Shown here: one piece after another, positions 1,608 through 39,721 of the stretch
How positions within the stretch are numbered: the stretch's first letter is position 1
How the letters are laid out: every line of letters begins with the position of its first letter
Source: an uncultured Bacteroidales bacterium
GTDB lineage: Bacteria; Bacteroidota; Bacteroidia; Bacteroidales; Paludibacteraceae
Length of the DNA: 42,278 nt
Direction of reading: 5' to 3'
NCBI GenBank assembly: GCA_900319035.1
Contig: ONMU01000015.1
Span: forward strand, 1 to 42,278
The notes under the pieces: model-generated
Databases searched by the model: none
The model's input: the letters and a program-made list of their open reading frames with translations, nothing else
What the model was told of the DNA's origin: nothing
Position numbers and translations under genes: made by a program

Positions 1608-1639
1608 GGCATGACGGCATAACGTCATGACGACATGAC
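1608..1639. repeat. 8-bp tandem array, 4 copies
   Basis: Four consecutive units GGCATGAC, GGCATAAC, GTCATGAC and GACATGAC fill the gap between the susD gene and htpG. The array ends 25 bp before the chosen htpG start. It belongs to the 7/8/11-bp array phenomenon described in the findings. Confidence 0.8.
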
Positions 1640-1664
1640 GAAATTTTTAAACAAAACATATACT

Positions 1665-3599
1665 ATGAGCAAAGGTAATATTGGGGTAACGAGTGACAAT
1701 ATATTCCCCGTCATTAAGAAATTTTTGTATTCGGATCACGAGATCTTTTTGCGTGAGTTGATTTCCAATGCCGTAGATGCGACGCAGAAATTGAAGACGC
1801 TGTCGTCGGTCGGCGAAGTGAAAGGCGACCTGGGCGATTTGCGTGTACGCGTGTCTATAGATAAGAATAAGAAGACCTTGACGGTCTCGGATCACGGAAT
1901 CGGCATGACCGCTGAAGAGGTGGACAAATATATCAACCAGATTGCGTTCAGCGGCGCAGAGGAGTTTGTCAACAAATACAAAGACAAGACCGAGGCCATC
2001 ATCGGACATTTCGGTCTGGGCTTCTATTCCGCATTCATGGTCAGCAAGAAAGTGGAGATTTTCTCGCTGAGCTACCAAGAGGACGCGAAAGCCGTTCATT
2101 GGAGCTGCGAAGGCAATCCGGAGTACACCATGGAGGAGACGATCAAAGCCGAACGCGGTACGGATATCGTGCTGCATATAGATGATGAGTTTAGTCAGTA
2201 CCTCGAGGACGCTACCATCGAAGGACTGCTCAAGAAATACTGTAAGTTCCTGCCCGTAGAGATCGCTTTCGGCAAGAAGAAAGAATGGAAAGACGGCAAA
2301 GAGGTGGAGTTGGAGGAAGAGAACATCATCAACGATACCAACCCTGCTTGGACCCGCAAGCCGAGTGATCTGAAGGACGAGGATTACGACAAGTTCTACC
2401 ACGAGCTTTACCCGATGCAGATGGACGAACCGCTGTTCCATATTCACCTGAACGTGGACTATCCGTTCAACCTGACAGGTATCCTGTATTTCCCGAAGAT
2501 CAAGAGCAATTTGGATGTTCACCGCAATAAGATCCAACTCTACTGCAATCAGGTCTATGTGACGGACGAGGTGGAGAACATCGTACCGGAATATCTGACG
2601 TTGCTGCACGGTGTGATCGACAGTCCGGACATCCCTCTGAACGTCAGCCGAAGCTACCTGCAGAGCGATAATAACGTCAAGAAAATCAGCGGATACATCA
2701 CCAAGAAAGTGGCTGACAAGTTGGCAGAGCTGTACAAAGCCGACAAGGATGAGTTTGCCAAGAAATGGGACGACATCAAGATGTTCATCCAGTTTGGCAT
2801 GCTGACCGACGAGAAGTTCTACGAGAAAGCGACCGGTTTTGCACTCTACAAGAACCTTGATGGCAAGTACGCCACCTTGGACGAGTACATGGATCAAGTG
2901 CGTGAGAATCAGGTAGATAAGGACGGAAATATGGTACTGCTGTACACCAATGATCCGGACGCTCATTATACCTATATCGAGCGTGCGAAAGCGAAGGGTT
3001 ACGACGTGCTGCTGATGGACGGCGAGTTGGACGTTCATTGCATGAGTCAAGCCGAGCAGAAACACGAGAAACTGCGTTTCGTACGTATCGACAGCGACAC
3101 GATCGAGAACCTGATCCGGAAAGAGGAGACAGCCAAAGATAGCTACACCGACGAGCAGAAAGAAGGCCTGCGGAAGGCGTTTGAAGGACAGCTGCCGAGT
3201 GATGCCGACAAACTGCGTTACACCGTAACCTGCGAAGCAGCCGCAGCAGATGCACTACCTGTCTTCCTGACTCAGAACGAGTTCATGCGCCGAATGAAAG
3301 AGATGAGCGCGCATCAGCAAGGAATGAATTTCTACGGCAACCTGCCGGACAGCTATAACCTCGTGCTGAATACGAACCATCCGCTTATCCAAGAGTTGGT
3401 GGGTAAAGAGACTTCCGAACAAGTGAATGAAGAAGTCGAGAAAGACGGCAAGAAAGAGACCATTGTCAAAACAGTCTGCTCTTTGTCCGGTGAGGACGAG
3501 AAGATCAAACAGCTGATTGACATCGCGCTGTTGGCTTCCGGTCAGCTGAAAGGCGAAGCTTTGGCGAAGTTCGTGAACAGATCAGTGGAACTGCTCTAA
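1665..3599 (+). CDS. htpG: Molecular chaperone HtpG (Hsp90 family)
   Basis: Cytosolic ATP-dependent Hsp90 chaperone, 644 residues from the chosen start. The N-terminal GHKL ATPase has the expected motifs: ELISNAVDA (helix with the catalytic Glu and Mg-binding Asn), DHGIGMT and GHFGLGFYSAFM (lid and nucleotide contacts). The middle domain has YFPKIKSNLDVHRNKIQLY and the catalytic-loop region LNVSRSYLQ. A shorter C-terminal dimerisation domain ends in NRSVELL. An in-frame ATG at 1635 lies inside the tail of the 8-bp array; the start at 1665 gives the family's usual beginning MSKGNIGVTSDN and follows an A-rich stretch usual for Bacteroidetes. No TAnnTTTG promoter is evident in the 110-bp gap. 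A hairpin terminator follows, so the gene is probably transcribed alone or with susD. Confidence 0.97.
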   Translation: MSKGNIGVTSDNIFPVIKKFLYSDHEIFLRELISNAVDATQKLKTLSSVGEVKGDLGDLRVRVSIDKNKKTLTVSDHGIGMTAEEVDKYINQIAFSGAEEFVNKYKDKTEAIIGHFGLGFYSAFMVSKKVEIFSLSYQEDAKAVHWSCEGNPEYTMEETIKAERGTDIVLHIDDEFSQYLEDATIEGLLKKYCKFLPVEIAFGKKKEWKDGKEVELEEENIINDTNPAWTRKPSDLKDEDYDKFYHELYPMQMDEPLFHIHLNVDYPFNLTGILYFPKIKSNLDVHRNKIQLYCNQVYVTDEVENIVPEYLTLLHGVIDSPDIPLNVSRSYLQSDNNVKKISGYITKKVADKLAELYKADKDEFAKKWDDIKMFIQFGMLTDEKFYEKATGFALYKNLDGKYATLDEYMDQVRENQVDKDGNMVLLYTNDPDAHYTYIERAKAKGYDVLLMDGELDVHCMSQAEQKHEKLRFVRIDSDTIENLIRKEETAKDSYTDEQKEGLRKAFEGQLPSDADKLRYTVTCEAAAADALPVFLTQNEFMRRMKEMSAHQQGMNFYGNLPDSYNLVLNTNHPLIQELVGKETSEQVNEEVEKDGKKETIVKTVCSLSGEDEKIKQLIDIALLASGQLKGEALAKFVNRSVELL

Positions 3600-3627
3600 T
3601 AGTTTAGTGTTTAGTGTTTAGAGTTGA
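3600..3627. repeat. 7-bp tandem array, 4 copies
   Basis: Units TAGTTTA, GTGTTTA, GTGTTTA and GAGTTGA begin at the base directly after the htpG stop codon and run into the htpG terminator. Confidence 0.75.
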
Positions 3628-3632
3628 GAGAG

Positions 3633-3664
3633 AAGTGTGTCATGAGAAGTGGCACACTTTTTTA
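3633..3664 (+). terminator. Intrinsic terminator of htpG
   Basis: AAGTGTG pairs with CACACTT, extended by one G.T and one C-G pair into a 9-bp stem, followed by six or more T residues. Confidence 0.8.
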
Positions 3665-3706
3665 ATTTTTTATGCAAATAGTAGGGGTATTTTTATTCAA
3701 AATAGT

Positions 3707-3764
3707 ATACGATTATTAAGATTTTAAGTAAAAATTGAAAAATTGAGCACTTTTTCTTAATAAT
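3707..3764. promoter_or_regulatory. Candidate operator upstream of the TonB-receptor operon
   Basis: ATTATTAAGA at 3712-3721 and its exact reverse complement TCTTAATAAT at 3755-3764 form a 10-bp inverted repeat with a 33-bp gap, upstream of the promoter at 3770-3800. The left arm lies in a 15-bp word (ATACGATTATTAAGA) that recurs exactly at 10956-10970, at nearly the same distance from another promoter. This suggests a regulator site shared by the two surface-protein transcripts. Confidence 0.45.
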
Positions 3765-3769
3765 AGGTA

Positions 3770-3800
3770 TTGGGTGTATCCCAAAAAAGCAGTACCTTTG
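3770..3800 (+). promoter_or_regulatory. Bacteroidetes-type promoter of the TonB-receptor operon
   Basis: TTG at 3770-3772, a 20-bp spacer and TACCTTTG at 3793-3800 fit the -33/-7 pattern of the Bacteroidetes primary sigma factor. Transcription should start near 3806, leaving a leader of about 40 nt. Confidence 0.85.
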
Positions 3801-3847
3801 CACCCGATTTTGAAATGATGTATTAGTTAAACGTACAAAAGAGAAAA

Positions 3848-6634: not shown

Positions 6635-6652
6635 ATTGAAAATTATAGGCTT

Positions 6653-9312: not shown

Positions 9313-10866
9313 ATGAAAAAGATTTTTACTGTTTTAGTTGCCGGTCTGATGATGACGGCACAAGTAATGGCCGTAACGGTTCAAGACGTATGCGGTCAGT
9401 TTAACGGCGATTTGAATATCGGCGGAACACCTTATCTGAATAGATCCATTTACCTGCTGCCGGGTACAGTGGACAATGCGATCACATTCGTATTGCCGGA
9501 TTTTACCTTTGGTTCTAAAGGCAAATTAGGCAACATCGTTCTGCCAAATATCCCGATGGACGCAAACGGTCAGTTAACGCTGGAGGGCGCAACGCTCTAT
9601 CTGGACTCCATCAACGAGCGTGCCACCATCACGGTGCTGAACGGTCTTGAAGATGGTGGTATTACCTACAACTCTATCATTACGCATAATGATGCCATGG
9701 TGTTGCTCTCTATCCAAGCTCCGTCTCTGCTGGAACCTATCCTTGTACTCTTCGTTGGACAAGCAGCTCGCAGCAACAACTATGCGCTGCCTAATGGTGG
9801 TTTCGAGGGTCAGTGGGTAAGCAATGAGCCCGCAGCATGGCACTCATTCGGTACTGCTACCGGTGCGTTGGCTAATATGGTAGTAGACCACACCTATCAG
9901 TTTATTCCCTCCACACAGGTTCGTCCGGGTTCTGAGGGCACACAGAGTTCAATGCTGTCGTCTGACATGCTTGTCGGCGTCAAAGCTAATGGTAACTGCA
10001 CCAACGGACAAATCAACGCAGGTTCGACTACTGCAGATGATGCGGCAAATAACTACAATTTCTCTGATCCTGCTAACAATGGTTTCAACACGGCATTCCA
10101 AGGTCATCCGGACTCGATTGTCTTCTGGGCAAAATACCTGCCTGCTGACAAAGACCCGAATAACGAGATAAACAAAGCTCGTATGAGCACGATCATCACT
10201 ACCAACGCCCGTTATCAGGATCCTGAGACCGCCAACTACGGCGAGGTACGTATTGCAAAGGCAGAGGTCAACTTTGCCACTACCGCTGAGATGGGTTGGC
10301 AACGTATCTCCGTGCCGTTTGAGTACACCAGTTTTGCAGCTGAACCGGCTTATATCCTCACCACTTTCACCACGAACCAAGTGCCGGGCGGCGGTTCTTC
10401 TTACAACAAAGGCAGCTTTCTTTCTCCGAAATATGTATTGGATACCGTTTATCTGGACGATGTAGAGTTGATTTACAACAAGACTCTGAATTCCTTCTCG
10501 ATTGACGCTAATCAGTTGCATTTTACGCAGCACATAGCTACTGTTAACGAGAACTACTGTGATAGTTGCGCTGATTATATCGCTGCAGCCGACGGACTTA
10601 CCGCTCAGACCTTCATCGGTTTTGATGCTACCCACAAGTGCATCCATGTGTATGTCATCGCTGACGATTTCGCTCAGTCGGGTGCTTACAAACTGTACCG
10701 CGTTGAGTTCAGCAACAGCCAGACCGGCGATCTCGACCCGATTGATCAAGGCGTAGAGAACCTCCTGCACAATACCATCAGCAGCGAGAAAGTGCTCCTG
10801 AACGGTCAACTGTTCATCCGTCGCGGTGATGTTTGGTTCAATGCCGCAGGTATACGAGTAAAGTAA
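9313..10866 (+). CDS. Secreted calycin-like plus PCMD-domain protein with C-terminal tail
   Basis: 517 residues. A signal peptide (about 1-20) precedes a full calycin-like beta-barrel domain (about 24-155; FNGDLNIGGTPYLNRSIYLL, LGNIVLPNIPMDANGQLTL, ERATITVLNGLEDGG). A PCMD-like domain (about 158-395) is closely similar to that of the upstream gene (GFEGQWVSNEPAAWHSFGTA, INKARMSTIITTNARYQDPE, TVYLDDVELIYN). The shared tail closes it (VLLNGQLFIRRGDVWFNAAG). The upstream paralogue has lost most of the calycin domain and gained repeats. Last gene of the TonB-receptor operon, 29 bp after its neighbour, followed by a tandem array and a terminator. A ligand-binding surface role is an inference from the calycin fold and the neighbouring receptor. 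Confidence 0.82.
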   Translation: MKKIFTVLVAGLMMTAQVMAVTVQDVCGQFNGDLNIGGTPYLNRSIYLLPGTVDNAITFVLPDFTFGSKGKLGNIVLPNIPMDANGQLTLEGATLYLDSINERATITVLNGLEDGGITYNSIITHNDAMVLLSIQAPSLLEPILVLFVGQAARSNNYALPNGGFEGQWVSNEPAAWHSFGTATGALANMVVDHTYQFIPSTQVRPGSEGTQSSMLSSDMLVGVKANGNCTNGQINAGSTTADDAANNYNFSDPANNGFNTAFQGHPDSIVFWAKYLPADKDPNNEINKARMSTIITTNARYQDPETANYGEVRIAKAEVNFATTAEMGWQRISVPFEYTSFAAEPAYILTTFTTNQVPGGGSSYNKGSFLSPKYVLDTVYLDDVELIYNKTLNSFSIDANQLHFTQHIATVNENYCDSCADYIAAADGLTAQTFIGFDATHKCIHVYVIADDFAQSGAYKLYRVEFSNSQTGDLDPIDQGVENLLHNTISSEKVLLNGQLFIRRGDVWFNAAGIRVK

Positions 10867-10897
10867 TTTGACATTTGTCATTTGTCATTTGACATTT
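10863..10897. repeat. 7-bp tandem array overlapping a stop codon
   Basis: Units GTAATTT, GACATTT, GTCATTT, GTCATTT and GACATTT. The TAA stop of the upstream gene lies within the first unit. The GACATTT unit also occurs inside xylB (37184-37257). Confidence 0.8.
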
Positions 10898-10908
10898 GAA
10901 AGTTATTT

Positions 10909-22170: not shown

Positions 22171-22201
22171 AATTAGATGTTGATTTTTTCGACAAAATCT
22201 T

Positions 22202-22245
22202 TAGTTCTTATTTAGTTCTTCTTTCGTTCTTCTTTGGTTCTTCCT
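22202..22245. repeat. 11-bp tandem array, 4 copies
   Basis: Units TAGTTCTTATT, TAGTTCTTCTT, TCGTTCTTCTT and TGGTTCTTCCT follow each other exactly, in the gap between the two deoxynucleoside kinase genes. Confidence 0.88.
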
Positions 22246-22266
22246 CTTCCGTTTGAGGTGAGTCAC

Positions 22267-22902: not shown

Positions 22903-22911
22903 AATGCTTAC

Positions 22912-22935
22912 TGTTTAACGGTTTAACAACTCAAC
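22912..22935. repeat. 8-bp tandem array, 3 copies, overlapping a stop codon
   Basis: Units TGTTTAAC, GGTTTAAC and AACTCAAC. The TGA stop of the adjoining GH13 gene (22931-22933) lies within the third unit. Confidence 0.6.
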
Positions 22936-24979: not shown

Positions 24980-25010
24980 AAATTATTTATTATTCAATTT
25001 TCCTCGACTT

Positions 25011-25065
25011 CATCGGTCCGTTCTCGATCCAACATCGGTCCATTCTCGGTCCAATCTCGAGAGAT
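25011..25065. repeat. 11-bp tandem array, 5 copies
   Basis: Units CATCGGTCCGT, TCTCGATCCAA, CATCGGTCCAT, TCTCGGTCCAA and TCTCGAGAGAT, preceded by TCCTCGAC. It aligns without gaps to the array inside trmO (31483-31537); by my count about 49 of 64 positions are identical when the preceding TCCTCGAC and one more base are included. It fills the 100-bp gap upstream of the last GH13 gene. Confidence 0.9.
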
Positions 25066-25079
25066 AATCATTTTTACCT

Positions 25080-25970
25080 TTATTTAACTTCTTTTCCCGT
25101 TGCATCAAACATCTTGTCACCGCGAATGATTCGCAACTGACCGTCAATAATCATCTTGTAGCTTTTTCCCTTGTCTCCTTGTACATTCTCCACGCCTTGT
25201 TTGTTACCATAGTGGTACGCATCAAAAGTCGCTTTATCCACACGCTCAAGTTTAATCTGTCCTTTGCAAGCCGCGCTGCGAATGATGATATAGTTCACAC
25301 CCTGAGGGATAGCCCATTTCTGGCATCCCTGCCATCCGTTAGCCCACTCCATCGTCACAGACTCGTTAGCAATCGTTGTTTCGGTTTTGGAGTAATAGAA
25401 ATTGCCCATATGGTCCTTGATAGCAATATAACTACCCATCTGGCAATCGATCATCAGTTTACCGTCCTCGAACAGGTACTCATCCTCATAAACATCATAA
25501 GCAGCCTCTCCGTGATCCGCTCCGTTGATCCAACCGATAGCATAGTAGTTCACATCATCTTCTACCGGATCTCCGCCGCCTTGACCGCCGCCTTGACCAC
25601 TGATATCAACACCCTCGCCGCAGTTGGAACCCGGACCGATATAGAGCTCGTCCTGTTCGTACTTCAACTTGATGTAGAAATCAAAACAGCCATCAGTCGA
25701 CACCTCGTACTGATTTCCATTGCGGGTAAAGCCCGTTACCGAAGCAGGGTTGAGATCCACCGCCCACACGGCTTTGTTCTCTGCATCGCAGAGTTGGCAG
25801 AAATCACCGGATTTCACCTGCACATGTGCCAGATACTGTTGAAAACCCTCAAACTCACCGGCTGGTTCTCCGGCAAAATAGGTAGTTCCGTTCACCAAAA
25901 TTCCATAACTTGCGGCTTGCATCAACATGCTGACCATCATTGCCGCCATCATCAAAAATGTTTTCTTCAT
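25080..25970 (-). CDS. Secreted non-catalytic protein with the amylase-type N-module and C-terminal tail
   Basis: 296 residues. After a signal peptide (about 1-20) comes a module of about 105 residues (YGILVNGTTYFA, CFDFYIKLKYEQDELYIGPG) that is also at the N-terminus of the two GH13 proteins just upstream. A Gly/Gln-rich linker (about 126-135) leads to a second domain of about 110 residues (YYAIGWINGADHGE, MGSYIAIKDHMGNFYY, NYIIIRSAACKGQIKLER), likely a beta-sandwich. The shared tail ends it. There is no GH13 barrel. It may be a starch-binding surface protein that works with the amylases; this is inferred from shared modules and operon position. The first 80 bases are nearly the same as those of the neighbouring gene, pointing to recent duplication. 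Confidence 0.82.
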   Translation of the reverse strand: MKKTFLMMAAMMVSMLMQAASYGILVNGTTYFAGEPAGEFEGFQQYLAHVQVKSGDFCQLCDAENKAVWAVDLNPASVTGFTRNGNQYEVSTDGCFDFYIKLKYEQDELYIGPGSNCGEGVDISGQGGGQGGGDPVEDDVNYYAIGWINGADHGEAAYDVYEDEYLFEDGKLMIDCQMGSYIAIKDHMGNFYYSKTETTIANESVTMEWANGWQGCQKWAIPQGVNYIIIRSAACKGQIKLERVDKATFDAYHYGNKQGVENVQGDKGKSYKMIIDGQLRIIRGDKMFDATGKEVK

Positions 25971-26000
25971 AGTAATTTAATTTTATTTGTTAGTTTGTAT

Positions 26001-27855: not shown

Positions 27856-27876
27856 ATCATTTATTATTCATTATTT
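27856..27876. repeat. 7-bp tandem array, 3 copies, overlapping a stop codon
   Basis: Units ATCATTT, ATTATTC and ATTATTT. The stop codon of the adjoining GH13 gene (27871-27873) lies in the last unit. The same unit type occurs at 29669-29696 and just upstream of the start codon at 24979. Confidence 0.6.
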
Positions 27877-29655
27877 CACTCTTCTTCCGAAGGCGTCATA
27901 TACATTCTCACCCATACGGATCAACAGTTTTCCGTCCTTGAGGAACTTATGTCCTTTCGCCTTTAACCCTTCGCCTTTCGCCTCCTCAATACCCGTCGGT
28001 CTCGGCTGATCGCTCAACACCCAGATCTCAAAACTCTCGTTATGTCCCTCTTGGGTGCTATAGTTGCTGGCTGCCAAGGTGAACCCTTGGAACGTCTGAC
28101 CGGTCTTATCGCCCAGACACAGGATCAACCATCCGTGTTTACCAACAACCGTTGCCTGATAACCCGTAGCCGTTGAGTACTCATCTTTCACCTCACTCTC
28201 ACTATGAACGCCTGCCCATTTACGAGCTAAGATCATCGGCTTCAGATCGGCTTTGTATTTCTTCCAATGCGGATAGAACACACACGGCACACCCGGCATC
28301 GACAGCAGGAACGCATTCGCCTGCATCAAACGAGCCTTCAGAGCAGGAGTCATCGAGTTACCGCGACCACCAAACTCATTCTCGTTATCCGGTCTCAAGA
28401 ACCAGTCATGGCTCTCGATGAACGTTACCGAATGACGGCCGTTACCGCGACTCATGATACAATCACCGCGACCGCGACTATAGTCCCAACCGGCTATCGA
28501 GTTGAATACATGCCATTTGAGGTCAAAATCCAGTGCCAGCAAGTCATATTGCGCTCCTTGTATACGCTCCCAAATCTGGTCCGTACCCTTATAGCACTCC
28601 ATGAAGGCGATCTCGGGTTTTGCCTCGGAGTTATAATGCCAGTGATGCCAGTTATTGAAACCGTCGCCTTTGTCGTAACGGAAACCGTCATAGTGCATCA
28701 CATTACGCATCCATTTCAGGTAAGCGATAAACATCTCCTGCACATATACATTATCATGCGCCCAGTCACGCGCGCCATCCCAGTTCTCACCATCATCCAT
28801 ATTACCCGTAGCTGCTCCATAACAATCGCCTGCCTCGGGATTCAGGTTCACCTCGTCGTTCTGGCAAATATAACTTGCATCCGGATGGAAAATTCCGTAT
28901 TCGCCAAAATCCATCGTCGGGAAATCACACCAACTCGTCCAACCCGTACAGTGGTTAATCACGATATCTGCTACCACTTTACATCCGTTAGCATGCAACG
29001 CACTAATCAGCGCATCCAACTCAGCACGCGTTCCCCAGTTCGAACTCTGGTTGCTGTATTGCTTCGGGTGATAACCCATTCCGTCTCCATTAGCACTTGG
29101 CGGCAACCAAACATAATCGAAATACGCACCTATTTCAGCTGCCTGCGGCGTCAGAGTCGTCCATTTGGTATTGCCGTACTCACTCACACCCGGAGCAGTA
29201 GCATTATACGACTCGTTGTAGAACGCCTGCATCATTACAGCCTCACATTGATGAGGAACAGCTCCCTTATAGACATCGTGAATATCTTCTCCATCGCCGC
29301 ATCCACTTCCGTTGCCGATATACAACTGATCCTCGCCGTACTTGAGCTTGATATAAAAATCATAGCATCCGGTCACGCTGGCGGTATAACGATCGGTGCC
29401 CTTCGTAAAACCGGCGACCGACCATGTGTCCAGATCTACCACCCAAGCTGCCTCATAATCCACATCGTACAGCTGTAGATAATCGCCGTTCTGCACTTTC
29501 ACATGCGCCAGATACTCGTCATAAGTACCCGTCATACTGTCTTTCCCTCGGTACTCTGCGGCAAAATACGTTGTGCCGTTCACCAAGATTCCATAACCTG
29601 CTGCTTGCGCCATCCCGGCACACATCAACAGCAACCATAACATTGTCTTTTTCAT
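27871..29655 (-). CDS. Secreted GH13 alpha-amylase with N-terminal binding-like module
   Basis: 594 residues. It has a signal peptide (1-18), the shared N-module (about 20-125; YGILVNGTTYFAAEY, CYDFYIKLKYGEDQLYIGNG) and a GH13 barrel from AVMMQAFYNESY. Motifs: DIVINH (230-235), nucleophile Asp328 in DGFRYDKGDG, acid/base Glu353 in AFMECYKG, third Asp417 in FIESHDWF. The tail is KDGKLLIRMGENVYDAFGRR. It is homologous throughout to the next downstream amylase, so the two arose by tandem duplication; sequence around the acid/base residue differs, which may reflect different substrate lengths. Second gene of the cluster transcript. Confidence 0.93.
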   Translation of the reverse strand: MKKTMLWLLLMCAGMAQAAGYGILVNGTTYFAAEYRGKDSMTGTYDEYLAHVKVQNGDYLQLYDVDYEAAWVVDLDTWSVAGFTKGTDRYTASVTGCYDFYIKLKYGEDQLYIGNGSGCGDGEDIHDVYKGAVPHQCEAVMMQAFYNESYNATAPGVSEYGNTKWTTLTPQAAEIGAYFDYVWLPPSANGDGMGYHPKQYSNQSSNWGTRAELDALISALHANGCKVVADIVINHCTGWTSWCDFPTMDFGEYGIFHPDASYICQNDEVNLNPEAGDCYGAATGNMDDGENWDGARDWAHDNVYVQEMFIAYLKWMRNVMHYDGFRYDKGDGFNNWHHWHYNSEAKPEIAFMECYKGTDQIWERIQGAQYDLLALDFDLKWHVFNSIAGWDYSRGRGDCIMSRGNGRHSVTFIESHDWFLRPDNENEFGGRGNSMTPALKARLMQANAFLLSMPGVPCVFYPHWKKYKADLKPMILARKWAGVHSESEVKDEYSTATGYQATVVGKHGWLILCLGDKTGQTFQGFTLAASNYSTQEGHNESFEIWVLSDQPRPTGIEEAKGEGLKAKGHKFLKDGKLLIRMGENVYDAFGRRVK

Positions 29656-29668: not shown

Positions 29669-29696
29669 ATTATTCATTATTCATTATTCATTATTT
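29669..29696. repeat. 7-bp tandem array, 4 copies, overlapping a stop codon
   Basis: Three exact ATTATTC units followed by ATTATTT. The stop codon of the upstream amylase gene (29691-29693) is inside the last unit. Confidence 0.8.
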
Positions 29697-31163
29697 CACT
29701 CTTCTCCCTTGTACATCGTACATCTGTCCTTCGTACATCAAATATAGTTTTCCGTCCTTGAGGAACTTCTTTTCCTCCCTTGATGAGGGGAGGGTCAGGG
29801 AGGAGGTTTCTATTCCCTTCTCCATCTGAATATACACGGTATAAGCGCCTCTATCGCCGCCTTCTACCGCTACTTCATATCCCTCCGGCAGTGTCGTACT
29901 GCGATATTTGCCCACACGCACAATCACTTTTCCGCGATGACCTTGGATCGTAGCATGGTACTTATACTGACCACTTTCCTCTGCCAACACTTGCGACTGA
30001 CTGTGGATTCCTGCCTGTTTGCGAACGGCTATCAACTCATTGATCTCGTCCTTGTAACTTGCCCAATGCGGATAGAACACACACGGCACACCCGGCATCA
30101 TCAGCATATACGCACTTGCCTGCAACACAAAATCTTTATTCGTAGCTGTGGACAAATCCGTACTCGGAGTAAACTGGTTTTTTCCATAAGCGTCACCTCG
30201 GTCAAACGTATCGTGGTTGTCGATGAACGTCACCGAATAACGCTCCAAACCATGCTTACGCAGACCCTCAAACGTCTTGTTTGCATTCAGTTTGCCGTAC
30301 GAACCGGTCACAATACCTTTCATCGAGTATTTCGCCTGAAAATCAAAGATCATCGTGTTCGAGTCACACTCCTGCAGATGTTGTTTCTGACGGCTTATAC
30401 TCTCCCACAACTCCGAAACCGACATATACGGTTGTGCCGCCTCGTTGTACATCTTCAGATACCGACCGTGGAAACCCAAGGTCATGTCGTACCTAAATCC
30501 GTCATACTTCATCGTGTTCAGCAACCATTGTGTATAAGCCTTCGACCAGTTCTGCACAACCTCGCTCGTGTGATCCAAGTCACGCGCTCCATCGAAATTA
30601 TTTCCGGTATCGTTCGCTCCACGCTCCGACGTAGATGCTCCGTAACACGACGATTTCGCATCCGTAAAACACTCGTCATTACGGCAGATCTCTTTCTGCG
30701 TCAAAGTAAACGTACCATAACTTCCAAAATAATCGGTAAAGAAATTACACCAACTCGACAGATTACCGCGATGGTTCAACACCACATCCGCCAGCACTTT
30801 CGTGTTGCCTTTATGCAATGCCGTAATCAGGTTGTTCAATGCCGTTTTGGTTCCCCAATCGCTCTCTTGGTTACTATACTGCCTTGCCGAATAACCCACG
30901 CCGCAACCGGTCGGACCCGCACTCGGCGGAAACCAAACCACATCAAAATTCGCATTGATGGCTGCGGTATCCTTGAGCAGATCAATCCATTTCGTACGAC
31001 CGAACTTGCTATCCGTACTCGTTTTGGTCTTGTAGCTATCCCAATAGAACGCCTGTAACATGACGTCTTCGCATTCCGCCGGAACGCCCACATTAGACGC
31101 GCAAACAACGCCCGCACTCGCGAGCAAAACAATAATGAGAGATGTCAGAATAGATTTTTTCAT
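29691..31163 (-). CDS. Secreted GH13 alpha-amylase without N-module, first gene of the cluster
   Basis: 490 residues from MKKSILTSLI; an ATG at 31172 would add three residues but leaves almost no leader after the predicted transcription start. A signal peptide (about 1-22) leads directly into a GH13 barrel (CEDVMLQAFYWDSYK). Motifs: DVVLNH (126-131), nucleophile Asp226 in DGFRYDMTLG, acid/base Glu251 in MSVSELWE, third Asp318 in FIDNHDTF. It ends with the shared tail (KDGKLYLMYEGQMYDVQGRR). The binding-like module of its two downstream relatives is absent. It is the promoter-proximal gene of a five-gene set (four GH13 enzymes and one module protein) likely to degrade starch-like glucans at or beyond the cell surface. 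Confidence 0.93.
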   Translation of the reverse strand: MKKSILTSLIIVLLASAGVVCASNVGVPAECEDVMLQAFYWDSYKTKTSTDSKFGRTKWIDLLKDTAAINANFDVVWFPPSAGPTGCGVGYSARQYSNQESDWGTKTALNNLITALHKGNTKVLADVVLNHRGNLSSWCNFFTDYFGSYGTFTLTQKEICRNDECFTDAKSSCYGASTSERGANDTGNNFDGARDLDHTSEVVQNWSKAYTQWLLNTMKYDGFRYDMTLGFHGRYLKMYNEAAQPYMSVSELWESISRQKQHLQECDSNTMIFDFQAKYSMKGIVTGSYGKLNANKTFEGLRKHGLERYSVTFIDNHDTFDRGDAYGKNQFTPSTDLSTATNKDFVLQASAYMLMMPGVPCVFYPHWASYKDEINELIAVRKQAGIHSQSQVLAEESGQYKYHATIQGHRGKVIVRVGKYRSTTLPEGYEVAVEGGDRGAYTVYIQMEKGIETSSLTLPSSREEKKFLKDGKLYLMYEGQMYDVQGRRVK

Positions 31164-31185
31164 GGCTATCATTTTAAATTGGCTG

Positions 31186-31216: not shown

Positions 31217-31260
31217 GCGCGTGAACCATTTTTTTGATAAAAAATGCTATTTTTACGTTT

Positions 31261-31350
31261 TTTCTATCTTTTTTACCACTACTACTTGCAAATTCCTCTT
31301 TTTTCACTACTACTTTTGCTTTTCTATTTTTTTTACCACTACTACTTGCT
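31261..31350. repeat. Three imperfect copies of an AT-rich 28-32 bp unit at the 3' end of trmO
   Basis: CACTACTACTT followed by GC occurs at 31277, 31305 (with two extra T residues) and 31337, each next to a T-rich run. The third copy lies inside the trmO coding end and encodes KQVVVVKKIEKQK; the other two lie after the stop. The first and third copies are nearly the same over 30 bp. Confidence 0.7.
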
Positions 31351-32011
31351 TATTTACCGAAAAAGTGACAGTATATCCGTCATAATCCATTTTGTACTCC
31401 CTTTCCGGATCATCTTGGTAAGCCGGACGGGGATCTTGAGAGAGGATATATTCCACATCTCGCACCCATTTTTCCTCGACATCATCGAGCCATTCTCGAG
31501 GCAATATCGATCCATTATCGAGACATTTACGAGAGATGAGTCCCCAATCGACCTCCAAACGGTCATTTTTATGCTCTTCAGCGAACCCGTTTTGCGCATC
31601 GGGATGACTGTCGCTAAAACTCAAATACGGCTTGATATCATATATCGGCGTCCCGTCCAACACATCCGCTCCGCTGACAGCCAGCTCTCCCTGTCCAACG
31701 CGCACCAACCGCACGCTGGATAACCCGATCGGGTTCGGGCGAAAAGGACTCCGCGTAGCAAAAACGCCCATCCGTTTATTCCCGCCCAATCGCGGTGGTC
31801 TAACCGTAGGGGACCACGAATCCACTTCGGAGAAGCCCCAAATCAGCCACAAATGGCTATACCCTTCTATTCCGCGTAAAGCCTCCGGCACGTTATATTC
31901 CGGCTCAAAAACGATACGTGTCAAGATGGGACTTTCCTCCCTGCTCTGTCTCGGAATTCCGAACTTGTCTGTGTGCCCATTTCGGGCATAAGCAATCACT
32001 TTTAATATCAT
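31310..32011 (-). CDS. trmO: tRNA (adenine-N6) methyltransferase TrmO / TsaA-domain protein
   Basis: 233 residues from the ATG at 32011; a GTG three codons earlier sits almost at the predicted transcription start and is less likely. Core motifs match the YaeB/TsaA family: VIAYARNGHTDKFGIPRQ, SHLWLIWGF, PTVRPPRLGGNKRMGVFATR, SPFRPNPIGLSSVRL, VLDGTPIYDIKPYL and ILSQDPRPAYQ. The enzyme uses SAM to methylate N6-threonylcarbamoyl-adenosine at position 37 of tRNA-Thr. Odd points: the stretch encoded by 31483-31537 is an 11-bp tandem array that makes the linker before ILSQDPRPAY longer than in homologues I know, and the last codons are part of a triplicated AT-rich repeat that continues past the stop. 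It is divergent from tRNA-Phe. Confidence 0.92.
   Translation of the reverse strand: MILKVIAYARNGHTDKFGIPRQSREESPILTRIVFEPEYNVPEALRGIEGYSHLWLIWGFSEVDSWSPTVRPPRLGGNKRMGVFATRSPFRPNPIGLSSVRLVRVGQGELAVSGADVLDGTPIYDIKPYLSFSDSHPDAQNGFAEEHKNDRLEVDWGLISRKCLDNGSILPREWLDDVEEKWVRDVEYILSQDPRPAYQDDPEREYKMDYDGYTVTFSVNKQVVVVKKIEKQK
31483..31537. repeat. 11-bp tandem array inside trmO, 5 copies
   Basis: Units CATCGAGCCAT, TCTCGAGGCAA, TATCGATCCAT, TATCGAGACAT and TTACGAGAGAT, preceded by TCCTCGAC. In the protein they give the segment around SRKCLDNGSILPREWLDDV. It is the same element as the intergenic array at 25011-25065. Confidence 0.88.
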
Positions 32012-32030
32012 AATTCGCACAAATTTGGCG

Positions 32031-32061
32031 CAAAATTACAAAAAATACACCAAAAATGCAA
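32031..32061 (-). promoter_or_regulatory. Bacteroidetes-type promoter of trmO
   Basis: On the minus strand TTG (32061-32059), a 20-bp spacer and TAATTTTG (32038-32031). Confidence 0.82.
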
Positions 32062-32087
32062 GTTTTTTGAAAAAAAATGCAAAAAAA

Positions 32088-32119
32088 TTTGGTCATGTCA
32101 AAAAAAAGCAGTACTTTTG
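32088..32119 (+). promoter_or_regulatory. Bacteroidetes-type promoter of tRNA-Phe
   Basis: TTTG at 32088-32091, a 20-bp spacer and TACTTTTG at 32112-32119. The transcript would have a leader of about 115 nt before the tRNA. Confidence 0.8.
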
Positions 32120-32193
32120 CACCCGCTTTCGTTCGAAGAGCATTTTTTATGCCCCTTCCGGCGGAGGCCAATAAGCGATAAAGCGTGTGTGAA

Positions 32194-32481: not shown

Positions 32482-32488
32482 AACAAAG

Positions 32489-32875
32489 TTATTCATTAAT
32501 CTCTCTCCAGCCATTCGGCAGCGAGACATTCTCCATTGCCACGGCGGCTTTGAAAAGCGGAGCTATCTCTTCGTTCGTAAAACCGGCTATACCACAACCG
32601 ATGCGCGTCACGCGGAACAGCTGTTCCGGATGTTGCTTCGCGTACTCAATAAACTCATCCACATACGGACGGATGGTCTCCACGCCGCCTTGCATGGTCG
32701 GAATAGCGTAACATTGCCCTGTCGGACCAACGCCCACGCCCCACTCTGCTCCAAAGAGTTTGTGCGCGATGTGTGCTGCTCCGCCGCCATGCATGCCCGC
32801 AAGATTACTGCCGAACACAAATATCTCATTCGGCTTCAGAGAGGTGATATACTCCGGTGTTACATGTAGTGTCAT
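32489..32875 (-). CDS. Macro-domain-like small protein (A1S_2505-type phage non-structural protein family)
   Basis: 128 residues. The motifs IFVFGSNLAGMHGGGAAHIA, GQCYAIPTMQGG, VDEFIEYAKQHPEQLFRVTR and IGCGIAGFTNEEIAPLF fit a family found in bacteria and phages, often named A1S_2505-type, with a macro-domain-like arrangement of glycine loops. Such loops suggest binding of ADP-ribose or another nucleotide; no function is established that I know of. The start codon overlaps the stop of the upstream 76-residue gene by four bases, and the 37-residue gene follows seven bases later, so the three are translationally coupled. Confidence 0.8.
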   Translation of the reverse strand: MTLHVTPEYITSLKPNEIFVFGSNLAGMHGGGAAHIAHKLFGAEWGVGVGPTGQCYAIPTMQGGVETIRPYVDEFIEYAKQHPEQLFRVTRIGCGIAGFTNEEIAPLFKAAVAMENVSLPNGWREINE

Positions 32876-33102
32876 AATAATTCTGTTAATGTATCTTCCC
32901 GAATGATCTTCGGCGCACTTTTGCCTGCTAACACAAGGATTTTCTTTCCGTCGCGATAGATGTGCAACTGCCGCGAGCGAACAACCGCCGTCAGCGTCGG
33001 GTCTGTCTCTATCTGCTCACGGATAGCACAGTACTCGCCGTTCTCGGCGAATAACTTCCGCTGTAAATGCGAGCACATGTTTGTGGTGTCTATCAATTTC
33101 AT
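32872..33102 (-). CDS. Hypothetical 76-residue protein
   Basis: 76 residues, MKLIDTTNMCSHL at the start, then YCAIREQIETDPTLTAVVRS and KKILVLAGKSAPKIIRED. No signal peptide or membrane segment. I do not recognise the family; the C-terminal half suggests a small alpha/beta fold. It is first in a three-gene set with a 4-bp overlap to the macro-like gene, with a TACCTTTG element upstream. Confidence 0.7.
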   Translation of the reverse strand: MKLIDTTNMCSHLQRKLFAENGEYCAIREQIETDPTLTAVVRSRQLHIYRDGKKILVLAGKSAPKIIREDTLTELL

Positions 33103-33128
33103 TTCTCTTTAGTACAATAATTCGGGCG

Positions 33129-33136
33129 CAAAGGTA
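33129..33136 (-). promoter_or_regulatory. -7 element upstream of the macro-like operon
   Basis: TACCTTTG on the minus strand, 26 bp before the start codon, between that gene and the xylE stop. No good -33 TTTG is present at the usual spacing, so the promoter may be weak or activated. Confidence 0.55.
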
Positions 33137-33148
33137 CAAAAAGCATGT

Positions 33149-34552
33149 TCAGGCTTTCATTGATTCGCGCCACATCGTGGTGATTTGTTCGAGGGTTTTT
33201 CCTTTCGTTTCGGGCACGAGTTTCCACACGAACAGCGCCGCTATGAGACAGATCACGCCATACAGGATATAGACCATGGCATGGCTGTAGTTATACAGCG
33301 GTACAAACGAAGAAGAGACCGCGAAATTGCTGATCCATTGGAAGGCTACGGCGATGGCTGTTGCCTGCGAGCGGATCGTGTTCGGGAAGAGTTCCGCCAT
33401 ATAAACCCAACAGATAGGACCCCAACTGAACATGAACGAAGCACTATAGACCAAGATGCTCGCCACCGCCACCCAAGCCGGGAGTGTGGTCATATTGGTT
33501 AGCGCAACACCGAATGCGCCTACTGCCATCAGCAACGAGCCGACGATGAGCAGCGGTTTGCGACCGAGTTTCTCCACAGTGAAGATGGCCAAGAGCGTGA
33601 AGCCGATATTCACGATACCCATAATGACCGTAAAAACCATCGGGTTAGCGACACCCATCGATTCGAAGATACGGGGTGCGAAATAGAGCACCGCGTTGAT
33701 GCCCACTATCTGCTGGAAGACCGAGAGCATGATTCCCACGAAGATCACCATCCAGCCGAAGGCAAAGAGCGGTTCGCGGGTCTCGATGGCCGTCTCGTGT
33801 ATCTCACGAACGATGATACGCGCGTGCTCCTCGGGGTGCAGTTTGGAGAGCACGTCGATGGCTTTCTTGTCGTCCCCTTTGAGCGCCAAGTAACGCGGGC
33901 TCTCAGGTACAAGCAGGATGAGCAAAGCGAAGGCGGCTGCCGGTACACACTCGCTGCCGAACATCGCGCGCCAGCCTATATGTTGCGTCCATTCCAGAAT
34001 AGCAGGGTCATTGACATGCGACCGTACGATGAGGTAATTGACGAAATAGACTACCAACTGACCGAAGATGATGGCGAACTGGTTCCATGAGACGAGTGCG
34101 CCACGTTTGTCCGCCGGGGCAATCTCGGCAATGTACATCGGGCAGATGGCGGAAGCCAAACCCACACCTATTCCGCCTAATATGCGGTAGAGGTTAAAGA
34201 CGATCAGCAAGGTCTTGGTAGGCACGCTATGCGGCAGTATTCCGCTCTCCGGCGCATAGGAACCCAAGGCAGAGATGAAGAACAGCACACCGGCGATGAA
34301 GAGCGTACGCTTACGTCCGAGACGCGAAGAGAGCACGCCGGAAAGAAACGCGCCGATGATGCAGCCGATAAGCGCACTACTGGAGGTGAAGCCATGCCAG
34401 AAATCGGAGTAGTTAAAGTCCTGCGCGCTGTCAAAGAAGTGTTCAAGTCCCTTCTCTGCGCCGGAGATGACTGCTGTGTCGTAACCGAACAGCAGTCCTC
34501 CGATTACCGCCACGAGGACGATAAAAAACAGATTCAATTTGTATTTATTCAT
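33149..34552 (-). CDS. xylE: D-xylose/H+ symporter, MFS sugar-porter family
   Basis: 467 residues from MNKYKLNLFF. The frame is open 39 codons further upstream, but that part overlaps the xylA end in another frame and is not protein-like. It has twelve hydrophobic segments and sugar-porter signatures: GGLLFGYDTAVISG near the start, RLGRKRT after TM2, PESPRYL, the second-half loop KLGRKPLL, and PETKGKTLEQI near the C-terminus. It imports xylose, or a related sugar, with protons across the inner membrane. It is the last gene of the xylose operon, 28 bp after xylA, with an 8-bp array in the gap. Confidence 0.92.
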   Translation of the reverse strand: MNKYKLNLFFIVLVAVIGGLLFGYDTAVISGAEKGLEHFFDSAQDFNYSDFWHGFTSSSALIGCIIGAFLSGVLSSRLGRKRTLFIAGVLFFISALGSYAPESGILPHSVPTKTLLIVFNLYRILGGIGVGLASAICPMYIAEIAPADKRGALVSWNQFAIIFGQLVVYFVNYLIVRSHVNDPAILEWTQHIGWRAMFGSECVPAAAFALLILLVPESPRYLALKGDDKKAIDVLSKLHPEEHARIIVREIHETAIETREPLFAFGWMVIFVGIMLSVFQQIVGINAVLYFAPRIFESMGVANPMVFTVIMGIVNIGFTLLAIFTVEKLGRKPLLIVGSLLMAVGAFGVALTNMTTLPAWVAVASILVYSASFMFSWGPICWVYMAELFPNTIRSQATAIAVAFQWISNFAVSSSFVPLYNYSHAMVYILYGVICLIAALFVWKLVPETKGKTLEQITTMWRESMKA

Positions 34553-34555
34553 TGA

Positions 34556-34587
34556 CGTATTTACGCATTTACTCATTTTCTCATTTG
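34556..34587. repeat. 8-bp tandem array, 4 copies, at the xylA-xylE junction
   Basis: Units CGTATTTA, CGCATTTA, CTCATTTT and CTCATTTG. The xylA stop codon (34581-34583) is inside the last unit, so the final codons of xylA are part of the array. Confidence 0.82.
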
Positions 34588-35897: not shown

Positions 35898-35898
35898 A

Positions 35899-35938
35899 AT
35901 ATTTAAATATTTATTCATTTATACATTTCCTCATTTAT
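35899..35938. repeat. 8-bp tandem array, 5 copies, at the xylB-xylA junction
   Basis: Units ATATTTAA, ATATTTAT, TCATTTAT, ACATTTCC and TCATTTAT. The xylB stop codon (35935-35937) is inside the last unit and the array ends one base before the xylA start. The units resemble those of the xylA-xylE array. Confidence 0.82.
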
Positions 35939-37455
35939 AACAAAGCTTTCCAACGGTTGTAGGCTTCGCGGTATTCGTCCTCGTGTGCAGGACGGATGGT
36001 AGCGAGGGTTTGGAGTGTGCTGAAAGCCTCTTCGGGTGTTTGGTAAATACCGGCTCCTATTCCGGCGCCTTTGGCAGCTCCGGCAGCTCCATCCGTGTCG
36101 TGGAGCAGGATTGTTGCACCGCTGACACCGGCAAGGGTCTCGCGGAAGATCGGCGAAAGGAACATATTCGCGTTACCGGCATGGATGGTGGAGATGTTAA
36201 GTCCCATCTGCTGCATAATCTCGATGCCGTACATGAACGAGAAGACGATTCCCTCCTGCGCCGCACGAAGCATGTGTGCACGGCTGTGCTGGGTGAAACT
36301 GAGCCCATGGATAGAACAGCCGCGTTCGGCGTTGCAGAGCATGCGCTCAGCGCCGTTACCAAACGGCAAGATACTCAGTCCGGCGCTACCGATAGGCGCT
36401 TTGGCTGCCTCTTCGTTCATCTGCGGATAACTGAGATCCGGCGCTAACTGATGATGCATCCAAGAATTGAGAATACCTGTTCCGTTGATGCACAACAAGA
36501 CGCCTAAACGGGGATTTGCGGGCGTATAATTGACGTGTGCAAAGGGATTGACACGAGACTGCGGGTCGAAAGCCACTTGGTCGATGACGCCATAGACGAC
36601 TCCCGAAGTGCCGGCAGTAGAAGCAATCTCTCCTGCGTGCAGAACGCCTAAAGAGAGGGCGTTGTTCGGCTGATCACCGGCACGATAGGAAACCGGAATA
36701 CCGGCAGGAATGCCTAAGAGTTCCGCCGCTTCTTTGGTCACCGTTCCCTGAATACCGAAAGTCGGTTTGGTTTCGCAAAGCAAGGAGGGATCGATGCCGT
36801 AGTGCTCCAATAACGCGTACGCGGGCGTTCCTTCTTTGAAATCCCAAAGGATTCCTTCGCTCAGACCGCTCATGGTCGTTACCGCATCGCCGGTGAGGCG
36901 CATGGCGATATAATCGCCCGGCAGCATGATTTTGTCGATGCGGGCATAGAGTTCCGGTTCGTTTTGCTTGACCCAAGCCAGCTTGGCGGCTGTGAAATTG
37001 CCCGGCGAGTTGAGATAGTGCTCCTGGCAATATTCCGCTCCCAAGGCGCGATAAGCCTCCTCACCATAAGGAACAGCACGGCTGTCACACCAAATGATAG
37101 CGGGACGAAGCACGTTCTGGTCCTTATCAACACACACCAAGCCGTGCATCTGATAACTGATGCCGATGGCGGCGATGTCATTGGAAATTTGACATTTGAG
37201 ATTTCTTATCTTCCTCCGGTCGAACGATCTGCTTCGCCGTATGGACATTTGAGATTTGGAGACAGCCTCTTTGAAAGCCGCTTGCGCATACTCCCACCAT
37301 TGAGCGGGATCCTGCTCCGCCCAACCTGCTTGGTGTGAGATAATAGGCGCTTCCTGTTTGGGGTAAAAAGCCGATGCGATACATTGCCCACTCTCCGCCT
37401 CTACCAGCGAAGCTTTAACAGACGAGCTGCCTATATCGAAACCTAATAGAATCAT
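35935..37455 (-). CDS. xylB: Xylulokinase with an in-frame repeat insertion
   Basis: 506 residues, FGGY carbohydrate kinase fold. It opens with the phosphate-1 loop LLGFDIGSSSVKASLV, has AIGISYQMHGLVCVDKDQ (usual for xylulokinases), VIWCDSRA, LPGDYIAMRLTG, YRAGDQPNNALSLG, and the adenosine-site GAERMLCNAERGCSIHG and IHAGNANMFLSPIF. It phosphorylates D-xylulose. Residues about 67-92 (SQMSIRRSRSFDRRK, IRNLKCQIS) do not fit the family, which usually has only a short linker here; they are encoded by 7-bp repeat units (37184-37257). The insertion keeps the frame and lies before the substrate-binding AIGISYQMHG, so activity may or may not be kept. The gene is second in the operon. Confidence 0.94.
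   Translation of the reverse strand: MILLGFDIGSSSVKASLVEAESGQCIASAFYPKQEAPIISHQAGWAEQDPAQWWEYAQAAFKEAVSKSQMSIRRSRSFDRRKIRNLKCQISNDIAAIGISYQMHGLVCVDKDQNVLRPAIIWCDSRAVPYGEEAYRALGAEYCQEHYLNSPGNFTAAKLAWVKQNEPELYARIDKIMLPGDYIAMRLTGDAVTTMSGLSEGILWDFKEGTPAYALLEHYGIDPSLLCETKPTFGIQGTVTKEAAELLGIPAGIPVSYRAGDQPNNALSLGVLHAGEIASTAGTSGVVYGVIDQVAFDPQSRVNPFAHVNYTPANPRLGVLLCINGTGILNSWMHHQLAPDLSYPQMNEEAAKAPIGSAGLSILPFGNGAERMLCNAERGCSIHGLSFTQHSRAHMLRAAQEGIVFSFMYGIEIMQQMGLNISTIHAGNANMFLSPIFRETLAGVSGATILLHDTDGAAGAAKGAGIGAGIYQTPEEAFSTLQTLATIRPAHEDEYREAYNRWKALL
37184..37257. repeat. 7-bp repeat element inside xylB
   Basis: GAAATTT, GACATTT and GAGATTT at 37184-37204, and GACATTT and GAGATTT again at 37244-37257, so a 14-bp direct repeat flanks 39 bp of other sequence. 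The GACATTT unit is the same as in the array after the gene ending at 10866. Confidence 0.8.
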
Positions 37456-37471
37456 GGTGTTTGCTTATTGA

Positions 37472-39013: not shown

Positions 39014-39035
39014 GGTTACTAAAGTAATCTCGGTG

Positions 39036-39066
39036 CAAAATTACAAAAAAAATTCCACATGTGCAA
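39036..39066 (-). promoter_or_regulatory. Bacteroidetes-type promoter of the xylose operon
   Basis: On the minus strand TTG (39066-39064), a 20-bp spacer and TAATTTTG (39043-39036). No other such element appears before xylB, xylA or xylE, so the four genes likely form one transcript. Confidence 0.83.
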
Positions 39067-39081
39067 GGGTTTGAGGGATTT

Positions 39082-39576
39082 TTAGTTGTTTATTGCTGTT
39101 TTTTGGCGAAGGAGGGCTTGGATGAAGGTGTCGAGTTTAGCGTACTGCTTTCGATAGAGTTTGGATGCTCCGGGACGCAGTTTTTTCTCGAAAGGCGCTT
39201 CCGGGTCGGGGTTCTTGAACTGGGCATAGAAACGTGTACGATAGTTCTCTAGCCGGAGGCGGAGTTCGGCTACGTGTGCGCACTCTTCGGGTGTCATCGC
39301 GGCGAGTTCTTCGGCGGTATAGCGCTCGGAACGGATGATTTCGGTTGTCATCCGGCTGACTTCTCCGAAAGAGCGCATATTGGCGAGTTCGGCACCTTGA
39401 GCGGGCGTTCTATCGAAATCGCGCGGATGAGCAATTTTGTAAGACTCCTGCACACCGACTTTGAGGACCGCGCCGTTGGGTGCGCGATACTTCTTTTGGC
39501 GCATGATAATTCCGCTATTTTTCTCAAATTCTCCGTGCATTTCTGCCACGGGTGCATGTAACTTAACTTTTGTCAT
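39082..39576 (-). CDS. Conserved hypothetical protein, 164 residues
   Basis: Basic, soluble protein without signal peptide or membrane segment. The N-terminus MTKVKLHAPVAEMHGEFEKN is followed by a short beta-rich part (KYRAPNGAVLKVGVQES), then HPRDFDRTPAQGAELANMRSF, and a helical C-terminal half with charged residues (LRLRLENYRTRFYAQFKN, KLYRKQYAKLDTFIQALL). This resembles small conserved proteins seen in Bacteroidales and in their phages; I cannot name a function. It is preceded by an about 280-nt leader with its own promoter, a palindrome and an 11-bp array. Confidence 0.75.
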   Translation of the reverse strand: MTKVKLHAPVAEMHGEFEKNSGIIMRQKKYRAPNGAVLKVGVQESYKIAHPRDFDRTPAQGAELANMRSFGEVSRMTTEIIRSERYTAEELAAMTPEECAHVAELRLRLENYRTRFYAQFKNPDPEAPFEKKLRPGASKLYRKQYAKLDTFIQALLRQKTAINN

Positions 39577-39613
39577 AGAATGGCATGATTTTTGTGGTTA
39601 ATTAAAAGAGTTA

Positions 39614-39633
39614 ATCCGCCAAACTTGGCGGAT
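39614..39633. other. Palindrome in the leader of the 164-residue gene
   Basis: ATCCGCCAA and TTGGCGGAT flank two bases, giving at least a 7-bp GC-rich hairpin. On the + strand it is followed by GG and five T residues; on the minus (coding) strand it lies 38 bp before the start codon. It may be a regulatory hairpin or a protein site. Confidence 0.55.
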
Positions 39634-39666
39634 GGTTTTTGGGCTCATTCTCCCTTCACGTAATAG

Positions 39667-39721
39667 GAATAACAGGCTAATGACGCGGTAACCACCCGGT
39701 TATCACGCGCTAATCACGCGC
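39667..39721. repeat. 11-bp tandem array, 4-5 copies
   Basis: Units GAATAACAGGC, TAATGACGCGG, TAACCACCCGG, TTATCACGCGC and TAATCACGCGC. It has the same period as the arrays at 22202, 25011 and 31483 but an unrelated unit. It lies in the long leader of the 164-residue gene. Confidence 0.85.

Follow-up and report, generated by a model that had tools for sequence, protein, structure and literature searches.

Several kinds of short repetitive element have been described in bacteria. Rickettsia palindromic elements (RPEs) are small and dispersed, and they sit in frame in unrelated protein genes (PMC10969869), while BrickBuilt of Porphyromonas gingivalis, a miniature inverted-repeat transposable element (MITE) of the Bacteroidales, is dispersed and combines a tandem-repeat body with fixed ends (PMC4596501). 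TAACTGA repeats, whose mode of spread is unknown, occur as two to six heptamers near start codons in Beggiatoaceae, cyanobacteria and five Bacteroidetes (PMC4679880), and arrays of GGGAATC in Xanthomonas and GGGGA(T/C)T in Nostoc lie between the same genes of related species and vary strongly in length and sequence (PMC4692102). The subject of this study is a set of tandem arrays with units of mainly 7, 8 and 11 bp in a 42,278-nucleotide stretch of DNA (contig ONMU01000015.1, hereafter the window) from an uncultured Bacteroidales bacterium of the Paludibacteraceae; the window is one contig of a 2.48-Mb draft genome, referred to below as the own genome. Literature searches found no description of exchanged 7-, 8- or 11-bp arrays in Bacteroidales.

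Short tandem repeats in bacteria are usually ascribed to slippage. The reading favoured here, held with modest confidence, is that these arrays are tiny dispersed cassettes which are copied and exchanged, operating much as RPEs do, and are not only microsatellites grown in place, so that arrays found across a whole genus would act partly as mobile cassettes. Three cassettes, namely a GTACATC composite, an array-core-array element (the core element) and an 11-bp element, were copied as blocks to unrelated places across species. Cassettes occupy short stop-to-start spacers and in-frame places in conserved proteins, and at some sites one cassette has given way to another of different unit; arrays that were retained mostly kept the same length. 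Each cassette would hold roughly four to five units, so that with a unit of 7, 8 or 11 bp its length would come to about 31, 35 or 47 bp; some have a core of 24-42 nt in mid-array, which looks hairpin-like in some cases, or fixed ends.

Arrays in the window were searched for with Tandem Repeats Finder (TRF) at a score of at least 30, which returned 44 rows, and each site was subjected to a lag-match test against 200 local shuffles, giving a P value for any period from 5 to 12. The original prediction had listed 13 array sites by eye; TRF recovered 11 of these, and each of the 11 had 0/200 shuffles in the lag test. The sites at 22912 and 27856 were absent from the TRF list and weak (P = 0.055 and 0.020, respectively). 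TRF added arrays at 27953-27983 and 29711-29739 (both period 7), 40277-40306 (10 bp x 3) and 31260-31349 (29 bp x 3). The window features are as follows, with ORF denoting an open reading frame.

1607..1640, plus strand: 8-bp array, CGGCATGA x 4.2, in the spacer before an HSP90-type gene (TRF, Pfam HSP90, lag test).
3601..3630, plus strand: 7-bp array, AGTTTAG x 4.3, directly 3' of the stop codon of ORF 1635-3599 (TRF).
10866..10899, plus strand: 7-bp array, ATTTGAC x 4.9, beginning at the final stop-codon base of ORF 9313-10866 (TRF).
22198..22243, minus strand: 11-bp array, TCTTTAGTTCT x 4.2, at a junction (TRF).
22910..22934, minus strand: weak 8-bp repeat of about 2-3 copies, outside the TRF list.
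24995..25086, plus strand: dispersed 11-bp element made of TTTTCCTCGACTTC, TCGGTCC-type units and TCTCGAGAGATAA (own-genome matches, self-comparison), with the TRF array at 25013-25059.
27953..27983, minus strand: 7-bp array, CCTTTCG x 4.4, in frame within ORF 27871-29655 (TRF).
29669..29695, minus strand: 7-bp array, AATAATG family x 3.9, spanning the stop codon of ORF 29691-31172 (TRF).
29710..29739, plus strand: GTACATC composite copy, close to the C terminus encoded by an alpha-amylase-type ORF (exact 24-mer search).
31467..31537, plus strand: 11-bp element inside the TrmO gene, ORF 31310-32020 (TRF 31480-31527).
34550..34586, minus strand: 8-bp array, CATTTACG x 4.6, at the junction 5' of a xylose-isomerase-type gene (TRF).
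35898..35942, minus strand: 8-bp array between the xylose-isomerase-type and xylulokinase genes (TRF).
37187..37258, minus strand: array-core-array element with 7-bp arms flanking CATACGGCGAAGCAGATCGTTCGACCGGAGGAAGATAAG, in frame in the xylulokinase ORF 35935-37455; TRF reports a 7-bp array at 37179-37204 in this gene.
39676..39722, minus strand: 11-bp array, GCTAATCACGC x 4.3, in an intergenic stretch (TRF).

Block copying was seen most directly in the GTACATC composite, TCGTACATCTGTCCTTCGTACATC, of which an exact 24-mer was found at seven places in 5/121 genomes (five species), while the pattern read backwards gave 0. This control was used for the GTACATC composite only, since the units of the AAAGKTG and AAAAATT-family patterns are nearly mirror-symmetrical and the backwards pattern is then not independent. 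The seven copies have unrelated flanks and sharp ends, and the unit is broken within the composite. The array-core-array element has 17 further matches in the own genome, some to an array arm only, and by my own count of the matches listed its stretch is matched somewhere by 29 of 100 other genomes of the genus. For the 11-bp element at 24995..25086, 14 own-genome matches were found with ends alike in most, and 3 of 40 relatives carry it at that threshold; a pattern scan of named genomes gave 68 stretches, 46 of them (own count) in Bacteroidales or Paludibacteraceae records. Its ends form an imperfect inverted pair by eye, TTTTCCTCGA and TTATCTCTCGA, while no terminal inverted repeats were seen in the 31-bp GTACATC composite. 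An AAAAATT-family composite was found in 7/198 genomes.

The units had been described as simply differing from site to site, but they can be grouped into families that recur: among pairs of 7-bp arrays, 4.2% have a common unit, against 0.16% expected from noncoding heptamers and a maximum of 0.87% in 1000 draws, and the flanks of the family members printed out are unlike each other by eye. The order of variant units is also common to arrays at unrelated loci, with a value of 157 over 588 pairs compared with a shuffle mean of 80.6 and a maximum of 105 in 200 shuffles. The chief rival explanation is local birth, in which microhomology-primed slippage or tandem duplication prefers steps of 7, 8 and 11 bp and certain units, and purifying selection filters the products; it is a possibility to be taken seriously, if a doubtful one. 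Such a process cannot place one GTACATC composite, broken unit included, at seven unrelated positions, nor can it yield the common order of variants, the core element or the replacement of whole arrays at 94-96% identity that is described next.

Exchange of cassettes was assessed at fixed sites. At the junction 22171-22266, which holds the array at 22198..22243, 8 of 18 relatives have a spacer of 4-15 nt, one shares the 11-bp array, another four carry arrays of different units (AAAAATT twice, AATAATG and AATGTTT), three have longer other content and two an array-free spacer of 28-29 nt; in a 95% identical genome the array has the same length. In the xylose operon, three sites carry arrays both in the window genome and in genome G050 with differing units, and G050 has ATTTGAAG units at all three, including the positions of 34550..34586 and 35898..35942. 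Between the ~94% identical genomes G075/G080 (82 kb aligned) and G103/G104 (26.5 kb), 53 sites of period 6-13 were lifted, and by reading, 25 had the same length, 8 an altered length, and 20 were different or absent. Four stretches of RUG715, the genome of an uncultured Bacteroidales, align to own-genome loci, three of them at 95.4-96.5% identity, which makes the host closely related to it. At these three loci 5/6 sites, comprising four arrays of period 11 and one of period 8, are unaltered in length; at the L020:7505 junction (~96% identity) the own genome has AACTCTC units versus AACGACC-type units in RUG715. At the fourth locus (87% identity), three sites of period 7 or 8 differ, the length being retained at one of them.

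Exchange also bears on the proposal that the arrays are selected as binding sites for proteins that recognise short tandem sites, or as spacers for translation of the next gene. Known tandem sites have the same three periods (7 bp for omega, 8 bp for MetJ and 11 bp for ParR), and the stop-to-start spacer is often filled by an array. Units and periods nevertheless swap at one and the same site, arrays occur in unrelated coding genes, and neither the 31-mer (z 0.48) nor the 11-bp element (z 0.01) folds above shuffles, which leaves selection for binding or spacing improbable. The suggestion of selection for helical spacing likewise found no support, because arrays of different period and unit swap at the same site.

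A second type of dispersed element, CTCCCC...GGGGAG hairpins, shares junctions and protein loops with the arrays: at junction 25971-26000 in G075/G080, and in the loops of RecF and of a receiver protein in G042 and G050. In addition, 9-bp arrays occur as inverted pairs that may form hairpins, at the G075/G080 pair sites and at L026:6583-6930; each pair has its own unit, e.g. TTTTGCACT with AGTGCAAAT, and further 9- and 11-bp arrays adjoin.

Cassettes inside genes keep the reading frame of conserved enzymes, among them XylB, TrmO, RecF (which I take to be the identity of an SMC_N match), SufS and superoxide dismutase (SOD). For XylB, three orthologues were aligned, and the insert stretch is 21 residues longer than in PDB 2itm; in TrmO, the 11-bp element lies between the N and C domains (Pfam TrmO_N and TrmO_C); SufS has 12 residues more than 5vpr, and SOD 3 residues more than 1ues. 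The core element is in frame in XylB, DNA polymerase I, an RlmL-like methyltransferase and an amidase-domain protein, and arrays also occur in a RecF-type protein, in a receiver of NtrC-like type, in a pseudouridine synthase and in an enzyme of the ThiF family. Several coding sites may lie just ahead of a predicted core strand. A structure prediction of xylulokinase for placing the insert had a mean predicted local distance difference test score (pLDDT) of 34 and was not used. For annotators, the odd low-complexity loops in these proteins are insertions.

The RecF loop carries a significant array in 14 of 29 species (12 of period 7 and 2 of period 8) with at least ten different units by eye; the remaining species have no insert (4), a DTTGEA-type loop (6) or other inserts (5). 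With 29 sequenced outcomes, this loop makes the question testable. At the NtrC-like receiver loop, 13 of 30 have arrays, and period 9 is as frequent as period 7 at this coding site (6 arrays each, with one of period 8).

Arrays, which are short, were also counted in larger samples, drawn from draft assemblies of which many are metagenomic according to their titles. A 273-kb sample of the own genome, picked irrespective of arrays, contained 43 arrays of at least 2.5 units in 20.9 kb of intergenic DNA, while 20 dinucleotide shuffles had a mean of 1.7. In window and sample together (316 kb), the counts were 53 for period 7, 17 for 8, 14 for 11, five each for 9 and 10, four for 12, three each for 13 and 6, and one or two for each of the others; 258 kb from 20 species of the genus gave 34 (period 7), 11 (8), 9 (11), 7 (9), 4 (12), 3 (16) and 1 (10), plus three singles. 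The full genus set of 987 kb, which takes in 140 kb selected for the 11-bp element and two near-identical species pairs, contained arrays of at least 3.2 units with periods 7 (171), 8 (62), 11 (40), 9 (17), 6 (9), 10 (6) and 12 (3), and shuffles of this set had at most 1.8 such arrays for any period. In a 280-kb control from other families and E. coli, the same threshold gave six arrays of period 7, three of period 6, and one each of 3, 4, 8, 9 and 15. Ten further families of the order, one of which was represented by N alone, yielded 15 arrays over 233 kb, and 50 kb of E. coli K-12 yielded a single array.

The preference for 7, 8 and 11 bp is therefore real and genus-wide when the 987-kb counts are set against shuffles; in these large samples, which cover part of the genome, the period histogram was not flat and arrays exceeded shuffled sequence. 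The preference is strong but not a rule, as these three periods dominate without being exclusive: the claim of only three periods fails since periods 9 and 10 exist, and the window itself holds the 10 bp x 3 and 29 bp x 3 arrays. Nor are the arrays confined to gene junctions. Among 84 arrays of period 7, 8 or 11, 65 lay chiefly in noncoding DNA (1.31 per kb) and 19 chiefly in coding DNA (0.071 per kb), as split by a simple hexamer gene caller, and open frames hold four array sites of the window: 27953, 29711, 31480 (TrmO) and 37184 (xylulokinase). One intergenic stretch, at L019:7122-7296, contains three arrays in succession, of period 7, 11 and 8.

Array size was informative with regard to slippage. 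Growth by slippage alone should give counts that fall from the detection limit, the decay expected of slippage simple sequence repeats; this was seen for periods 9, 10 and 12, while periods 7, 8 and 11 showed modes. Period 7 peaks at 30-31 nt (43/213); counts for periods 8 and 11 are highest at the detection limit, as usual, and have a further mode at 35 nt (8/98) and 46-48 nt (13/92), respectively. These modes correspond to about 4.4 units each, near 4p+3 for a period p, a rule which rests on TRF edges and broad peaks. They would suit a telomerase-like or other templated enzyme that writes about four repeats from a 3-nt primer, yet the own genome has no reverse transcriptase match, the many units would require many templates, and the rule itself depends on those edges and peaks, which makes a templated enzyme very improbable. 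Slippage is insufficient on its own because sizes cluster, composites are duplicated at unrelated loci, and arrays replace each other at sites. The original prediction that slippage would not explain everything thus stands, but the copying machinery it proposed was not found.

If the arrays are exchanged cassettes, the copying would be non-autonomous and would leave no target duplication; short single-stranded DNA might, for instance, be patched in at the replication fork, or the template switched there. Slippage would act alongside, making units alike and adding or deleting them one at a time, and the period preference would belong to the copying or priming process. A stronger claim, that an array-writing or copying machinery is at work throughout this genus of rumen Bacteroidales, making cassettes of ~4.4 units in three favoured steps and exchanging them at fixed sites, even in RecF and SOD loops, is considered unlikely; if true, it would define a class of mobile element smaller than the usual transposase-recognised element. 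The arrays offer a natural experiment on the spread of short DNA patches without a visible transposase.

A number of results weigh against copying and exchange as the general explanation. Block copying was demonstrated for some cassettes, which account for a minority of the families. The core element is limited to the genus in the samples examined, its exact pattern being found in 0/294 other genomes of the order, one of these from the same genus. Sharing of units at separate loci is about twofold higher within the own genome (200/12065) than between genomes (307/36063), and species-specific homogenisation at unlinked loci was weak and not significant (permutation P 0.09 and 0.16). AAAGKTG arrays were ruled out as genus-specific, being present in 16/295 genomes of the order from 15 genera, and genus heptamers recur in viral-collection contigs of 42-70% GC. 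Some length changes, at three of the lifted sites, are exact unit multiples, as from slippage. A search of the own genome, about 91% complete, for reverse transcriptase (PF00078) gave no match, and retroposition was rejected on this ground. The sole Y1-type transposase candidate, the ORF at L153:1441-2441, is marginal (22.6 and 21.5 bits, cut-off 23), and the CCGAATnnnATTCGG hairpins seen by eye in and after it are different ones, so that spread via a Y1 transposase was also rejected. At the seven GTACATC composite copies, the only cassette covered by this check, no target duplication of at least 3 nt was seen by eye, with one copy ending 7 nt from a contig end.

Several observations speak for local birth. 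A heptanucleotide preference and a link to polymerase slippage have already been proposed (PMC4679880, PMC4692102). The same units appear in distant taxa, some lengths change by whole units, a length near 4p+3 would fit priming on about 3 nt, and arrays are in excess in noncoding DNA. Viral-collection contigs picked for AAATCTS arrays had 11 of 53 units in common with the genus, where 2.8 were expected and the maximum of 500 draws was 7. Heptamers across 42-70% GC and AAAGKTG in 15 genera fit a process with preferred sequences as well as they fit spread, and the units shared with viral-collection contigs make a sequence-biased local process more possible for arrays without partners. The contigs in question, L245-L274, were found by their AAATCTS arrays and hold 143 period-7 arrays in 254 kb at 42-70% GC.

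Further candidates were set aside. The idea that the period equals the length of a target duplication was ruled out, as no duplication was seen at the GTACATC composite copies. Structured RNA or DNA as a function was rejected with no fold for the 31-mer and the 11-bp element and weak folding of the cores (three cores only, 39-42 nt long, z -1.7 to -2.1); Rfam matches in the window were tRNA only. Phage as a carrier was rejected since the core pattern and the GTACATC composite gave 0 in the viral collection, where the 11-bp pattern was found in 3 contigs, the two examined having the unit TCGGTCCCGTT. Elsewhere in the window, TGCAAAGGTAC-type sequences are dispersed at 32021-32143, 39854-39899 and 41683-41728 and are probably promoters, and a 333-bp repeat of 1.9 copies at 8012-8637, within ORF 6653-9283, encodes a repeated protein segment.

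Compared with the systems introduced at the outset, as far as the available parts of their descriptions go, exchanged cassettes of this kind have near but imperfect counterparts, and none of the descriptions of RPEs, BrickBuilt, TAACTGA or the GGGAATC sets includes the exchange of arrays of several periods at one site. The view that no Bacteroidales system would account for the arrays has to be revised, since BrickBuilt is a close parallel (PMC4596501): dispersal, a tandem body and fixed ends are common to both, and the 11-bp element resembles it most. BrickBuilt, however, has a 23-nt unit, is always intergenic and ends in inverted repeats, whereas here the units are of 7, 8 or 11 bp and of many sequences and are often in coding DNA, and no inverted ends were seen in the 31-bp composite. 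TAACTGA repeats share the heptamer sets at junctions but have one fixed unit, whereas here the units are many, the main periods are three, and copies also lie in frame in coding sequence; TAACTGA itself was absent among the 67 distinct heptamer units of the 987-kb set. The GGGAATC and GGGGA(T/C)T arrays are likewise heptamers at junctions, yet they are G-rich with one dominant unit and were studied as G-quadruplexes, while most of the present units lack such G-richness. Within genes, RPEs come closest, the core element being in frame in unrelated proteins as they are, but RPEs are about 150 bp long and palindromic, whereas the cassettes described here have a tandem-array body without a fold above shuffles, also fill junctions, and exchange at fixed sites.

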